Shown: positions 2 through 18,039 of the stretch, one piece after another
Layout of the letters: each line of letters begins with the position of its first letter
Numbering within the stretch: the first letter of the stretch is position 1
Position numbers and translations under genes: made by a program
Notes under the pieces: generated by a model
What the model was told of the DNA's origin: nothing
The model's database searches: none
What the model saw: only the letters and a program-made list of their open reading frames with translations
Assembly (NCBI RefSeq): GCF_036346295.1
Contig: NZ_CP107819.1
Location: 5,084,001 to 5,148,000 of the forward strand
Direction of reading: 5' to 3'
DNA: 64,000 nt
Origin: Streptomyces sp. NBC_00536
GTDB lineage: Bacteria > Actinomycetota > Actinomycetes > Streptomycetales > Streptomycetaceae

Positions 2-913
2 TGGGGCTACCACACCTTCCACCGCGCCCCCGACGGAGTCACCGGCACCGACCTCTCGCGCGGCGCCGCCGAACAGGCCCTGTCCCGCGCCGGGATCACC
101 GCCGACGCCCTCGACCTGGTCGTCGTCGCGATCACGGACATGCCCGAATACTCCTACTGGGACAGCGCCTCCGCACTGGCCCGGGAGCTGAAGATCGGCC
201 GCACCCAGACCCTGCTCCTGCAGGAAGGGTGCGGGTCCGGGGTCAACGGCCTCTTCTACGTCGCCTCCACCCTCGCCCTGCAACCCGAAGCCGAATACGC
301 CCTGTTCGTGGTCGTCAACCGGGTCAGCGAGTTCCACCGCAACCGGATGAACGTCATCAACACCGTGCTGTCCGACGCGGCCGTCGCCGTCGTCGTCCGG
401 CGCGGCCACACCGCCAACCGGTGGCTGGCCAGCGAACAGTTCACCGACCCCGAGTACAGCGACCTGCTGCGCCTCGACTTCGGCGGCGCCGTCACCCCGC
501 TGCCCCCCGTCGGCTGGACCAGCGCCGATGCCCCCTCCGCCTACGACCAGGTGCGCGAACAGTTCGGCGGCAACCCCGCCGCGCTGCGCACCTTCATCGG
601 CGAGCGCTACACCCGCCTCGTCGAGGTCATCGAGGGCGCCTGCCGCCGGGCCGGAGTCCCGCGCACCGACATCGACCACGTCATCTACCTCAACGACGTC
701 CCCTCCAGCATCGCCGCCGTCGCCGGACCGCTCGGCATCCCGCTGGAACGCACCAACGCGGCCATCGCCCCCGGCCACGGCCACATGGGCGGCGCCGACC
801 AGCTGATCTCGCTCGGTCTCCAGGTGGAGAGCGGCGAACTGAACCCCGGCGACCTGGTGGCCCTGTGCGGGATCTCCACCGGCCGCTGGTGCGCCACCTT
901 GATCCGCATCTAA
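2..913 (+). CDS. KASIII-like (FabH/thiolase fold) enzyme, 5' end cut by window
   Basis: The open frame enters from the left edge without a start and stops at 911-913, leaving 303 residues of a protein usually about 330-350 long. The fold signature is a ketoacyl synthase III: the nucleophile sits in LLQEGCGSGVNGLF (Cys codon 230-232) and the chain ends with a short beta-strand segment GISTGRWCATLIRI. The other two catalytic positions are changed. The usual HQAN block reads as LNDVP and the HGNTSAAS block as HGHMGGAD, so His and Asn are not in their normal places. Family members with altered triads act as acyltransferases rather than decarboxylating synthases; that role here is inferred. It is first in the operon that continues with the adenylating enzyme and acyl reductase, so it may build or transfer the acyl group they handle. 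Confidence 0.8.
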   Translation, partial: WGYHTFHRAPDGVTGTDLSRGAAEQALSRAGITADALDLVVVAITDMPEYSYWDSASALARELKIGRTQTLLLQEGCGSGVNGLFYVASTLALQPEAEYALFVVVNRVSEFHRNRMNVINTVLSDAAVAVVVRRGHTANRWLASEQFTDPEYSDLLRLDFGGAVTPLPPVGWTSADAPSAYDQVREQFGGNPAALRTFIGERYTRLVEVIEGACRRAGVPRTDIDHVIYLNDVPSSIAAVAGPLGIPLERTNAAIAPGHGHMGGADQLISLGLQVESGELNPGDLVALCGISTGRWCATLIRI

Positions 914-951
914 AGAGATCCGCCCGGTCACCCGGGCCACCAGACCAGCGC

Positions 952-1001
952 GTACGCCGGCGGGGCCGTCCATTCCCCCGTGCCGGGCCCCGCCGGCGTA
1001 C
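952..1001. terminator. perfect 16-bp stem-loop between operon genes
   Basis: Bases 952-967 and 986-1001 are exact reverse complements (arm starting GTACGCCGGCGG) with an 18-base loop. There is no T-run. It lies between the KASIII-like gene and the next gene of the same strand, so it may act as a partial terminator or as an mRNA-stability element rather than as an operon end. Confidence 0.55.
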
Positions 1002-1028
1002 CCGCTGCCCCGCCCGAAGGAGACCACC

Positions 1029-14646: not shown

Positions 14647-14720
14647 GTCTCTCGTGCCTCTCAGTCGAAGTACGGCATGCGGTGTGCGGTGTGCGGTGTG
14701 TGTACGGGTGCGGTCCGGGG

Positions 14721-15599
14721 TCAGACCGAGGCGAAGATCCGCGCGCAGAGTTCGCGGTAGTTGTCGAGTTCGGCGCCCAGCGCGCCGCGGACCGTGGCCA
14801 TCAGGGCCGCGAAGTCCGCCTCGTCACCGTCCTTGACGGTGTCGGCGAGCCGCCGGGCGGCCTCGGCGAGCGCCGTACGGGCGCCCGCGGCCTGCGGGTT
14901 GGCGGCCTGGACGTCCCAGTACACCTCCGGGGTGCCGGAGGAGACCCGGGCGAGCAGGGACGCGAGGGTCTTGTGCGGGGGCGGGGCGATCCGGCCGACC
15001 TCGACGCTGTCGGTGCCGAGCCCGTGCAGGGCCAGCCCGAAGGAGAGGACGGTGGCGTGGGTGAGCGCCTGGGAGACGGCGGTCAGCCGGTCGTGTTCGA
15101 CGGCGTCGACCCGGACGACCCGGGCCCCCCAGGACTCGACCAGGCCCAGCAGTTCGGTGGTGAGCGGCCCGTCGTAGGTCACCGACGCGGCCACCACCCG
15201 GCCCTCGAAACCGAGGGCCGGGGCGAACATGGGGTTCAGGCCGAGGCCCTCCACCCCGTCGAGGTGGGCGCTCAGTTCCTCCGCGATCCGCTGCTTCACC
15301 GAGAGGGTGTCGACCAGCAGGGTGCCGGGCCGCATCGCGGCCGCCACCCCCTTGATCGAGGCGAGCGCCACCGGTTCCGGCACCGCCAGCATCACCACGT
15401 CGGCGAGCCGCAGTTCCTTCTCCAGGGCCGGGGAGATGTCGGTGATGTCGCCGTGGATCCGGCGGGCACCGCCCGCGGCGGGTTCCCCGGCGCCCGCCGG
15501 GTCCACCACGCAGATCATGATCCCGCTGCCGAACAGCTTCTCGGTGAAGAGCCGGCCGACCGCGCCCTGCCCGCCGACGATGACCGCGCGGCGGATCAC
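14721..15599 (-). CDS. papC: PapC-like 4-amino-4-deoxyprephenate dehydrogenase
   Basis: The 292-residue NAD-dependent enzyme of the prephenate dehydrogenase family has a Rossmann loop [12 protein letters not shown] at residues 7-18 and an all-helical dimerisation half. PapC oxidatively decarboxylates 4-amino-4-deoxyprephenate to 4-aminophenylpyruvate. The assignment rests on the three-gene order papB-papA-papC; alone it could be a tyrosine-pathway dehydrogenase. The GTG start at 15599 overlaps the papA stop (GTGA), which rules out the longer in-frame extension reaching to 16409. Confidence 0.88.
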
Positions 15600-17746
15600 G
15601 CCGCACTCCCGGCGGTATGGGGTGCCAAGGAGGCGCTGGGCGCCGGGAGTTGAGCAGGAGCCGCGACCGGGTGCAGTGCGGTGCCCACCACGGCCTGGAC
15701 CATGGCCCGGGACTTCACGACGGTCTCCTCGAACTCCTCGTCGGCGTCCGACAGCGCGATGACCGCGCCGCCGACCCCGAAGGTGACCCGGTCCTCGGTC
15801 GCCACCAGGGTGCGGATGACGATGTTCAGGTCCGCGGCCCCGGAGAGCGCGAACCAGCCGAGCGAGCCGGAGTACACCCCGCGGGCGCCCTCCTCCAGCC
15901 GGTCGATGATCTCCATCGTGCGCACCTTGGGCGCGCCCGTCATCGAACCGCCGGGGAAGGCGGCCCGTACCGCGGTGACCGCGGACTCGCCGTCGCGCAG
16001 CGTGCCGCGCACGGTGGAGACCAGCTGGTGCACGGGCGCGTACGTCTCCACGTGGAACAGCTTGGGCACGTGGACCGAGCCCACCTCGGCGACGATGTTG
16101 AGGTCGTTGCGGATCAGGTCCACGATCATCAGGTTCTCCGCCTGGTCCTTCTCGTTGCCGAGCAGGTCCTGGCGCAGCGCCTCGTCCTCGGCCGGGGTCG
16201 CCCCGCGCGGCCGGGTGCCCTTGATGGGCTTGGACTCGGCGGTGCGGTCGGTGCCGATGGTCATGAACCGCTCGGGGGAGCCGCTCAGCACCGAGACCCC
16301 GGGGAAGTCGAGGAGCGCGCCGTAGGGGACCGGGCTGATCCGGCGCAGCGCCGCGTAGGTCTCCAGCGGGTCGATCCGCGCCTTGATCCCGACCTGGTTG
16401 GTCAGGCACACCTCGTAGCTCTCGCCGTCGTGGATCTCCTGGTGGATCTCGGCGATCCGGTCCAGGTAGCCGGTCCGGTCGTGCCGCATCCGGATGATGT
16501 CGGCGAGCGCGGGGTCCGTCATCCCGGTGGTGGCGAAGCTGCGCGGGGCGGCGCCGACGGCCGCGGCCGGGGCCGGGCCCAGCGCCATCAGGCGGGCCGC
16601 GGTCCGGTCGAGCCAGTCGGCCGTCTCGGCCTCGGTGGCGGCTCCCCGGGTGAGGGCGAGCAGGTAGGTGGCGCCCTCGGCGTGGTCGAAGGCGACCATG
16701 CGGTCCGCGAAGAGGAGGGCGGCGTCCGGGGTGTCGGCCTTGTGGGCCTGGTGGCCGCCGGTGTCCGCCTTCAGCTCGTAGCCGAGGTAGCCGACGTAAC
16801 CGAGGTTGAACTCGAAGGGCAGCCCTTCGGGCACCTCGATCCGGCGGTCGGTGAGCTGCTTCTCCAGGTAGTCGAAGACGCTCTCCTCGACGAGTTCGTC
16901 GCGGCCGTCGCGGCGCTGGATCCGGACGGTGTGCTCCAGCACCTGGTAGGTGAGGTACTCGGCGAGCGGGCCGGTGCCGTCGCCCATGAAGGAGAACCGG
17001 GAGAGGCCCTCGGTGACGTTGCTGCTGTCCAGCCAGAAGCCGTGGTCGTTCCCGGCGAACAGCTCCCGGTAGGCCTCCTCGGTGTCGGGCAGCATCCCGA
17101 CCTTGCGGACCTGGACGGCGTACGCCCCCTGCGGGACGGTGTCCTTCCGGGCGCCCTCGGCCAGGGCCAGATCGCGGAAGTTCGCGAGGAGTTCGCGGCC
17201 GTAGCCGCTGCTGATCGACTCGGGGTGGAACTGCACCCCCCAGACGGGCAGGGTGCGGTGGCGCACCGCCATCACCACGCCGTCGGCGGTCCAGGCGGTC
17301 GGCTCCAGCTCCTCGGGCAGCCGGATCGCCGCCAGCGAGTGGTAGCGGACCACCGGATAGGGGGAGGGGATGCCCGCGAAGATCTCCCCACCGGTGTGGG
17401 TGATCTCGGATACCCGGCCGTGCATGGGCTGCGGCGCGTGGCCGACCTCGCCGCCGAAGAGGTGGCAGATGCCCTGGTGGCCGAGGCAGACGCCGAGGAC
17501 GGGCAGACCGCTCTCCAGGATGGCGCGGGCGCTGATGCCGAAGTCGCGTGCGCGCTCGGGGCGGCCGGGGCCGGGGGAGATGACGATCGCGTCGTAGTCG
17601 TCCATCGACAGCGTCGACCAGTCGGTCTCGTTGGTGACGACGACCGGCGGGCGGCCGTTCACCTCCCCGAGCAGCTGGTAGAGGTTGTAGGTGAACGAAT
17701 CGTGGTTGTCGATCAGAAGAGTTCGCATGGTGCGTGGAGTGCTCAT
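15596..17746 (-). CDS. papA: PapA-like fused aminodeoxychorismate synthase (PabA-PabB)
   Basis: This 716-residue fusion has an N-terminal glutamine amidotransferase (residues 7-200; Cys87 in GVCLGHQG and the HPES triad histidine) and a C-terminal chorismate-binding domain. The key motif PIKGTRPRG contains the lysine that marks 4-amino-4-deoxychorismate synthases, rather than PIAGT of anthranilate synthases, and the metal-binding end is present. It converts chorismate and glutamine to 4-amino-4-deoxychorismate. The start ATG 17746 overlaps the papB stop; a second in-frame ATG six codons in is less well supported. Chorismate supply would come from the DAHP synthase at 7010. An isolated PABA/folate role is unlikely given its neighbours. 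Confidence 0.93.
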
Positions 17747-18039
17747 GAGCCGATCACCAAGTCCTCGACCCGGCAGGTCTCCGCGATCACCAGGTCATAG
17801 AGAGTGCGCAGGAAGTCCGTGTCGATCCCGTGGGCGGTCCCGAAGGCCGCGGCCCGTTCCTGGACCAGCCCGATGCGGTGCGGCTGCATCATCGGAATGC
17901 CCTGGTCCTTCTTCACGAGGGCGATCTCGACACATACGCCGATGCGCGCCCGTAGTTCTTCGAGGAGCCGCTCGTCGATCCGGTCGAGCTTCGCGCGCAA
18001 CTCGTCAATGCCGGCGGTGGCTTGCGCCGTGCCCTTCAT
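17743..18039 (-). CDS. papB: PapB-like 4-amino-4-deoxychorismate mutase
   Basis: This 98-residue all-helical AroQ-type mutase has [19 protein letters not shown] at residues 11-29 and the substrate-binding VKKDQGIPM. PapB rearranges 4-amino-4-deoxychorismate to 4-amino-4-deoxyprephenate. It is the first gene of the - strand operon papB-papA-papC-ligase, with its stop overlapping the papA start. The ATG follows GGGAGGTAGTC on that strand. Confidence 0.9.

Follow-up and report, generated by a model that had tools for sequence, protein, structure and literature searches.

What does a streptomycete make from a gene cluster that sets nitrite-forming enzymes beside a route to 4-aminophenylalanine? 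The question is raised by a window of 64,000 nucleotides, bases 5084001-5148000 of contig 1 in the 9.15 Mb genome of Streptomyces sp. NBC_00536 (coordinates below are those of the window, negative values lying to its left), in which a preliminary description recognized a nitrous-acid pathway combined with 4-aminophenylalanine biosynthesis. Sequence comparison indicates that the cluster is probably a composite of two modules, one for a griseolutein-type phenazine and the other combining nitrite, 4-aminophenylalanine and diazotase genes, with diazotisation of 4-aminophenylalanine or its amide as its predicted chemistry. The ligase gene of the second module is:

12964..14646, minus strand: predicted ATP-dependent diazotase, a CmaA6/Tri17-like ANL enzyme by sequence, profile, fold and motifs

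The solved nitrite-using enzymes nearest to this ligase are CmaA6 (361 bits, 29-32% identity) and Tri17 (345 bits, 27-30% identity), well above the nearest acyl-CoA ligase at 113 bits. It has the same ANL fold as CmaA6 and two motifs in common with it, and nitrite genes are found in the same cluster. Its earlier designation as a CreM-like AMP ligase agrees with these matches, and the grouping with acyl-CoA ligases that would have spoken against a nitrite-dependent role was not observed when examined by sequence, profile and structure rather than by a tree. The closest ligase is that of Streptomyces sp. G-G2 (93%). A homologue from Microbispora corallina, named only FadD in its deposition (PDB 9xb8/9xbs, which was not among the matches listed in fold searches with a library reaching to April 2026), scores 746 bits to the window ligase and belongs to the same clade. 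The M. corallina ligase at 10001-11641 of locus L101 is identical to 9xb8/9xbs over the 204 residues compared, and its gene likewise has papABC and ATP-grasp genes as neighbours, which suggests a diazotase.

The rest of the nitrite and 4-aminophenylalanine half lies on either side of the ligase gene:

3601..5586, plus strand: CreE-like aspartate N-monooxygenase, 661 aa (Pfam NAD_binding_9; 666.8 bits to PDB 8cp2, which we take to be CreE, the entry's molecule name reading FAD-binding protein)
5583..7013, plus strand: CreD nitrosuccinate lyase (NCBIfam NF052556, 708.7 bits against a cut-off of 650)
7010..8242, plus strand: class II 3-deoxy-D-arabino-heptulosonate 7-phosphate (DAHP) synthase (over the Pfam DAHP_synth_2 cut-off, under that of NCBIfam, 498.9 vs 614.7)
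8224..9615, plus strand: ATP-grasp amide ligase of L-amino acid ligase type (ATP-grasp_4; LAL_C2 under cut-off; 41.6 bits to PDB 3vot)
9759..10913, plus strand: major facilitator superfamily (MFS) exporter (MFS_1)
11023..11826, plus strand: probable LuxR-type (GerE-like) regulator (DUF7436 and GerE, both under curated cut-offs; relatives in diazotase clusters)
11880..12872, plus strand: HisC-like aminotransferase (Aminotran_1_2; PRK03321, 438.9 bits)
14721..15599, minus strand: PapC-like enzyme of the prephenate dehydrogenase (PDH) family (PDH_N, PDH_C)
15596..17728, minus strand: PapA, fused aminodeoxychorismate (ADC) synthase (GATase, Anth_synt_I_N and Chorismate_bind)
17743..18039, minus strand: PapB, chorismate-mutase (CM)-fold protein and putative ADC mutase (CM_2)

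CreD exceeds its curated cut-off and its gene is overlapped by that of the CreE-type FAD monooxygenase, the combination expected of the aspartate-nitrosuccinate (ANS) pathway. PapA matches the solved ADC synthase 8hx6 at 936.8 bits (next PDB match 218.5), and stands together with a CM-fold mutase and a PDH-fold enzyme, while the HisC-like aminotransferase perhaps converts 4-aminophenylpyruvate into 4-aminophenylalanine. The gene content put forward in the preliminary description, namely nitrite genes, papABC homologues, DAHP synthase and aminotransferase, is thus borne out, and every gene that it named is a long open frame at or near the place assigned to it. Open frames on the wrong strand returned no families from the profile scans. 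The DAHP synthase shares 59-60% identity with its counterparts in two phenazine-free clusters, 67% with the S. triticagri enzyme and 44% with the one next to the phz genes of S. griseoluteus (the sole class II enzyme labelled in 60 kb there); judged by these identities it is of the diazotase-cluster type. Homologues of the ATP-grasp gene likewise occur in phenazine-free diazotase clusters.

The left edge of the window cuts the cluster inside the gene of a ketoacyl synthase III (KASIII)-like protein, and because of this cut the phenazine context was missing from the preliminary description. We added 34 kb of leftward DNA from the same genome, with genes called by a purpose-written base-composition gene caller, which places about 15 kb of the cluster off-window and brings its total to approximately 33 kb (-14.9 kb to 18.0 kb). 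The genes nearest to this edge are:

-1987..-401: adenylation (A) domain, nearest solved proteins Thr1 and CytC1 (entry 5n9w cited)
-404..-111: peptidyl carrier protein (PCP), second of the A-domain/PCP/KASIII trio
1..913 (begins at -103), plus strand: KASIII-like acyltransferase (ACP_syn_III_C), last of the trio
1029..2129, plus strand: EhpF-like adenylating enzyme, predicted to activate a phenazine carboxylate (279 bits to solved EhpF, 3l2k/3hgu)
2129..3508, plus strand: EhpG-like aldehyde-dehydrogenase-fold reductase, so assigned from its family (Pfam Aldedh) and its pairing with EhpF (1-base overlap)

Left of the window, Pfam recognises PHZA_PHZB (1.8e-84), PhzD as an isochorismatase, PhzE by its chorismate-binding and GATase domains, PhzC-PhzF, and PhzG as a PNPOx-type protein. 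At the cut-off used, the sole PDB match of the PhzE-like protein is 3r74 (780.9 bits), which we take to be PhzE. The phzA/B, D, E, F and G genes are therefore all present together with EhpF and EhpG, as in griseolutein (ehp)-type clusters, and EhpF and EhpG are found in all six relatives compared. Nearby genes encode a WrbA-like reductase, and also an acyl-CoA-dehydrogenase-fold protein (ACAD) and a flavin reductase that could act together as a two-component hydroxylase. A glyoxalase-fold gene and a methyltransferase gene form a minus-strand pair at -11821..-10680, next to berberine bridge enzyme (BBE) oxidase and MFS genes at -14903..-11903; all four also occur (71-96%) in the stretches compared from G-G2, S. 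bambusae and S. antimicrobicus. At the level of fold class the glyoxalase-fold protein is like EhpR, a griseoluteic-acid-binding resistance protein (PMC3175449, in its available part). Because the upstream phz genes, methyltransferase and glyoxalase-fold protein combine with EhpF and EhpG, the gene set fits griseoluteic acid chemistry and the module is predicted to be of griseolutein type. Griseoluteic acid was detected in the broth of S. griseoluteus, according to the accessible portion of PMC12380601, and that species has matches (46-79%) to the phz genes, hyp122, ACAD, methyltransferase, EhpF, EhpG, glyoxalase-fold and BBE genes. The short-chain dehydrogenase/reductase (SDR), flavin reductase and WrbA-like genes had no match in the S. 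griseoluteus cluster stretch, nor had the A-domain/PCP/KASIII trio in the S. griseoluteus, S. bauhiniae or S. triticagri stretches.

The preliminary description had added the EhpF/EhpG-like pair to the set of the diazotisation pathway. The pair is present, but belongs to the griseolutein-type pathway, and we rejected it as diazo machinery since in S. griseoluteus and S. bauhiniae it accompanies phz genes away from the ligase. The A domain was rejected as a loader of 4-aminophenylalanine, its nearest solved relatives being Thr1 and CytC1; its residues, compared with the specificity code by eye from an alignment rather than by computed prediction, suggest a small threonine- or aminobutyrate-like substrate. 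The WrbA/FMN-reductase-like gene at -2775 was rejected as a diazonium reductase and assigned to the phenazine part. Relatives of this gene occur in 179/392 Streptomyces genomes, and the two closest outside hybrid clusters (73-74%) sit approximately 6 kb from phzA/B; against this stands only that such a gene lies near a ligase in two other loci (G362 and L141), in one of them also near CreE/CreD.

One same-strand run extends from the SDR gene (-10433) through the aminotransferase gene (end 12872), spanning both modules, and converges on a minus-strand operon (18039-12964) in the order CM-fold PapB, PapA, PapC and ligase. Since relatives keep the cluster genes (85-98% identity in G-G2, 68-92% in S. 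bambusae and S. antimicrobicus) while the frames at 18388, 18726 and 19565 to the right of PapB have no match in the compared stretches of six relatives, the grouping is not attributable to chance. The original reading stands in so far as genes for supplying nitrite and 4-aminophenylalanine do lie together with a diazotase-type ligase gene, but has to be widened to a phenazine pathway, mostly off-window, that is also part of the cluster.

A scan of a species-genome collection, covering the best 80 of 135 stretches encoding a ligase relative, gave 79 loci; neighbours were counted within flanks of up to 10 kb, some loci being on short contigs. All three of papA, papB and papC lie within 10 kb of the ligase in 50/66 loci at ≥50% ligase identity and in 0/13 below. 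By identity class, the full set accompanies 4/4 ligases at ≥80%, 16/16 at 65-80%, 13/14 at 60-65%, 17/32 at 50-60%, 0/3 at 40-50% and 0/10 below 40%, where four of the ten loci have a PapA-like gene (≥55%), alone or with PapB, and never all three. Of the 66 loci at ≥50%, 53 contain an ATP-grasp relative and 28 encode an Rv2466c-like protein. At least 31 have CreE, a lower bound set by the flanks; in a 20-40 kb view CreE is present in 10/11 Streptomyces loci with ligases of ≥68%. The clade extends over Streptomyces, Kitasatospora, Microbispora, Lentzea, Amycolatopsis, Mycolicibacterium and other genera. One phenazine-free cluster encodes papBAC, the ligase, an Rv2466c-like protein, several ATP-grasp proteins, a pyridoxal phosphate (PLP) enzyme, MFS exporters and an A-PCP-thioesterase (A-PCP-TE) protein, and in two more loci, of which only one has papABC, CreE/CreD are accompanied by a type I DAHP synthase and a class IV aminotransferase. 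On this gene content the nitrite/Pap/ligase core is a widespread orphan family that recurs without phenazine genes across actinobacteria.

phzA/B was sought in the 47 genomes behind 50 of the 79 ligase loci (strong matches having E under 1e-70), giving 11 strong, 5 weak and 31 without a match. Seven of the 11 strong genomes have phzA/B at a distance of 16-31 kb from a ligase of ≥71%. Of 392 Streptomyces genomes sampled evenly, 46 had phzA/B and 12 had a ligase of ≥65%; phzA/B was present in 5/12 ligase genomes vs 41/380 others (Fisher p 0.008, or 0.03 without the window genome), and the modules lay within 40 kb in 4/12 where chance placement would give about 0.1% per genome, both figures ignoring shared ancestry. 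Two of those sampled genomes are S. bambusae and S. triticagri, so each species is counted once in a total of nine Streptomyces species, the window's included, with the modules within 35 kb. They are interleaved in the window, G-G2, S. bambusae, S. antimicrobicus and, as far as seen, WAC06614 (layout A), interleaved and rearranged in S. triticagri (layout B), and side by side in S. griseoluteus, S. bauhiniae and G369, the last by position only (layout C). Interleaving was read directly in five species and taken from spacing in WAC06614. In the A and B clusters read a single DAHP synthase was found, and no separate phenazine-type one.

The following pathway is proposed from gene content, family matches, synteny and the ligase's resemblance to CmaA6 and Tri17. 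PhzE, D, F, A/B and G would make phenazine dicarboxylate, of which EhpF and EhpG would reduce one carboxylate, and a flavin hydroxylase and the methyltransferase would install a ring methoxy group, giving a griseoluteic-acid-like core to which the A-domain/PCP/KASIII trio probably adds a small threonine- or aminobutyrate-like acyl group. In the other module, nitrite would be released from aspartate through oxidation by CreE and cleavage by CreD, and the DAHP synthase would feed chorismate to PapA, PapB, PapC and the aminotransferase for 4-aminophenylalanine. The ligase would then use ATP to adenylate nitrite, an activation reported for this kind of enzyme (PMC10777205, in the text available), and diazotise the para-amino group of 4-aminophenylalanine or of an amide made by the ATP-grasp enzyme, yielding a 4-diazonium-phenylalanine unit. 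Diazotisation may come before or after amide formation. Whether a large actinobacterial clade makes 4-diazonium-L-phenylalanine, its small peptides via ATP-grasp and, in some Streptomyces by coupling to a griseolutein-type phenazine, a phenazine azo, hydrazo or triazene antibiotic is doubtful as a combined proposition.

Several findings weigh against a composite cluster with a 4-aminophenylalanine diazotase. The ligase scores 339.7 bits against the AvaA6 3-aminoavenalumate diazotase equivalog (NF058622), and because this falls under the 975-bit cut-off it is, by profile, not the AvaA6 enzyme. Sixteen of the 66 loci at ≥50%, some on short contigs, are without full papABC within their flanks, so that 4-aminophenylalanine may not be the universal substrate, and one locus with papABC and a ligase of 54% (G177) has no CreE or CreD within 40 kb. 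No strong phzA/B match was obtained in 36/47 genomes, and the diazotase core exists without phenazine genes; in 4/11 phz-positive ligase genomes the modules are not within 35 kb (three on different contigs, one at 67 kb), and in S. griseoluteus and S. bauhiniae they are adjacent rather than interleaved, which fits two separate products. Two products, with somewhat less than an even chance in our estimation, would be a griseolutein-type phenazine and an independent, exported diazonium peptide from the nitrite, Pap, ATP-grasp and MFS genes, only precursors and regulation being shared. They are favoured because the modules occur separately, as in the phenazine-free diazotase clusters and the 41 phz-positive genomes lacking a ligase of ≥65%, and because of layout C, to which S. 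griseoluteus, a reported griseoluteic acid maker (PMC12380601, same portion), belongs; each module also has its own MFS gene. On the other side stand the six interleaved species, the start of CreE only 92 bases behind EhpG in the window, and the interleaved clusters with one DAHP synthase of the diazotase type.

Interleaving and the single DAHP synthase also speak in favour of coupling of the diazonium to the phenazine, with 4-diazonium-phenylalanine reacting with an electron-rich (dihydro)phenazine, or being linked through ATP-grasp or KASIII, to give an azo, hydrazo, triazene or amide hybrid. We hold this joined product as a tentative possibility: the modules are co-directional, were both retained through rearrangement in S. 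triticagri, are co-located above chance in the genome sample and appear to be served by one diazotase-type DAHP synthase, and in the tasikamides two pathways are reportedly joined by diazonium coupling, which sets a precedent. On the other hand, no enzyme dedicated to coupling was identified, the ATP-grasp gene is a member of the diazotase core in phenazine-free clusters too, the KASIII trio is unmatched in three of the relatives as noted above, and shared ancestry can explain the co-location. Transient diazotisation, in which the amino group is replaced by hydride, water or thiol and the end product has no N-N bond, is unlikely. AvaA6/AvaA7 and CmaA6/CmaA7 act in this way in the avenalumic and p-coumaric acid pathways (available text of PMC10777205), and the Rv2466c-like protein of the relatives belongs to a family named mycothiol-dependent nitroreductase, but deaminated 4-aminophenylalanine would be phenylalanine or tyrosine, already in the cell, and the 98 kb around the window cluster contain no Rv2466c-like match (AvaA7 homologues were not searched for). 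An acyl-CoA or amide synthetase function of the ligase, with the nitrite genes serving something else, is very improbable; depositors and databases do name its relatives FadD or acyl-CoA ligase, but profile, fold and motifs are closer to CmaA6 and Tri17 and the ligase is usually found beside papABC.

The CmaA6 and AvaA6 clusters for p-coumaric and avenalumic acid resemble the diazotase module in the ANL fold, the two motifs (CmaA6), CreE/CreD nitrite supply and, by prediction for the window, an arylamine substrate; their arylamine, however, derives from 3-amino-4-hydroxybenzoic acid (3,4-AHBA) and a type II polyketide synthase, whereas the window has papABC. Tri17, the triacsin N-N enzyme, ranks second to CmaA6 among the characterised solved enzymes in both sequence and structural similarity, and to our knowledge its natural substrate is not an arylamine. 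Chloramphenicol and pristinamycin clusters use papABC to make 4-aminophenylalanine; PapA, PapB and PapC are likewise found here, adjoining diazotase and nitrite genes, and no arylamine N-oxygenase was seen among the annotated cluster genes. Griseolutein and D-alanylgriseoluteic acid (ehp) clusters share the phz core, EhpF, EhpG, methyltransferase, a glyoxalase-fold protein (EhpR fold class) and MFS genes, but the cluster here adds the nitrite, Pap and diazotase genes and the A-domain/PCP/KASIII trio. Each half is thus of a known kind. We found no description of papABC with creE/creD, or of a phenazine with a nitrite-derived N-N bond, and hence neither the tie of the diazotase-like clade to papABC nor its merger with a griseolutein-type cluster, in the literature searched, which included the accessible parts of PMC11705231, PMC13061610 and PMC11429834 and had preprints and most subscription journals outside its scope. 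A Nature 2026 paper refers, in its available part, to creD/creE/creM architecture searches made in a thesis (PMC13061610), so clusters of this kind may already have been catalogued. In the portion seen of a review (PMC11705231) the arylamines named for nitrite-using diazotases are of benzoate or aryl-polyene type. Few nitrite-using diazotases are confirmed, and the distinct diazotase-like clade here is tied by neighbourhood to an amino acid, 4-aminophenylalanine. If the prediction is correct, these enzymes would form a diazonium amino acid at neutral pH, and unseen products would be expected in many strains, including the griseoluteic acid maker S. griseoluteus.

A number of further features were noted around the cluster and its relatives. 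A second ATP-grasp protein is encoded at 25882-26943 of the window, 8 kb right of PapB, with approximately 37% identity to a two-domain ATP-grasp protein of a diazotase cluster, and G-G2 has a similar gene right of PapB. A DDE-type transposase gene (L009 2661-3842) lies left of the cluster at about -17.3 kb. Locus L054 (1803-14777, genome G379) and the similar L082, L085, L087, L088 and L140 are phenazine-free and have several ATP-grasp genes, some two-domain, and a PLP enzyme near papABC and the diazotase, G379 also having an A-PCP-TE protein there; these loci probably make an unseen diazonium peptide. S. bauhiniae carries two diazotase clusters of the clade (L086 and L140) approximately 106 kb apart on one contig. 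In Mycobacterium and Mycolicibacterium, papABC, ligase, ATP-grasp and CreE/CreD genes occur together (L109-L111, L114, L117, L120, L121, L124, L126 and L137). Loci L127, L112, L119, L123, L128, L130, L132 and L133 combine the ligase with CreE, CreD and an Rv2466c-like protein and have no papABC within their flanks; L127 has a DAHP synthase I and a class IV aminotransferase, and loci of its type may use another arylamine. Near the S. griseoluteus phz genes (L172 18420 to L173 1856) are genes for an AurF-like oxygenase, an 82-aa protein of no known family, an alpha/beta hydrolase and a phosphopantetheinyl transferase (PPTase), which may make the acyl group of griseolutein.

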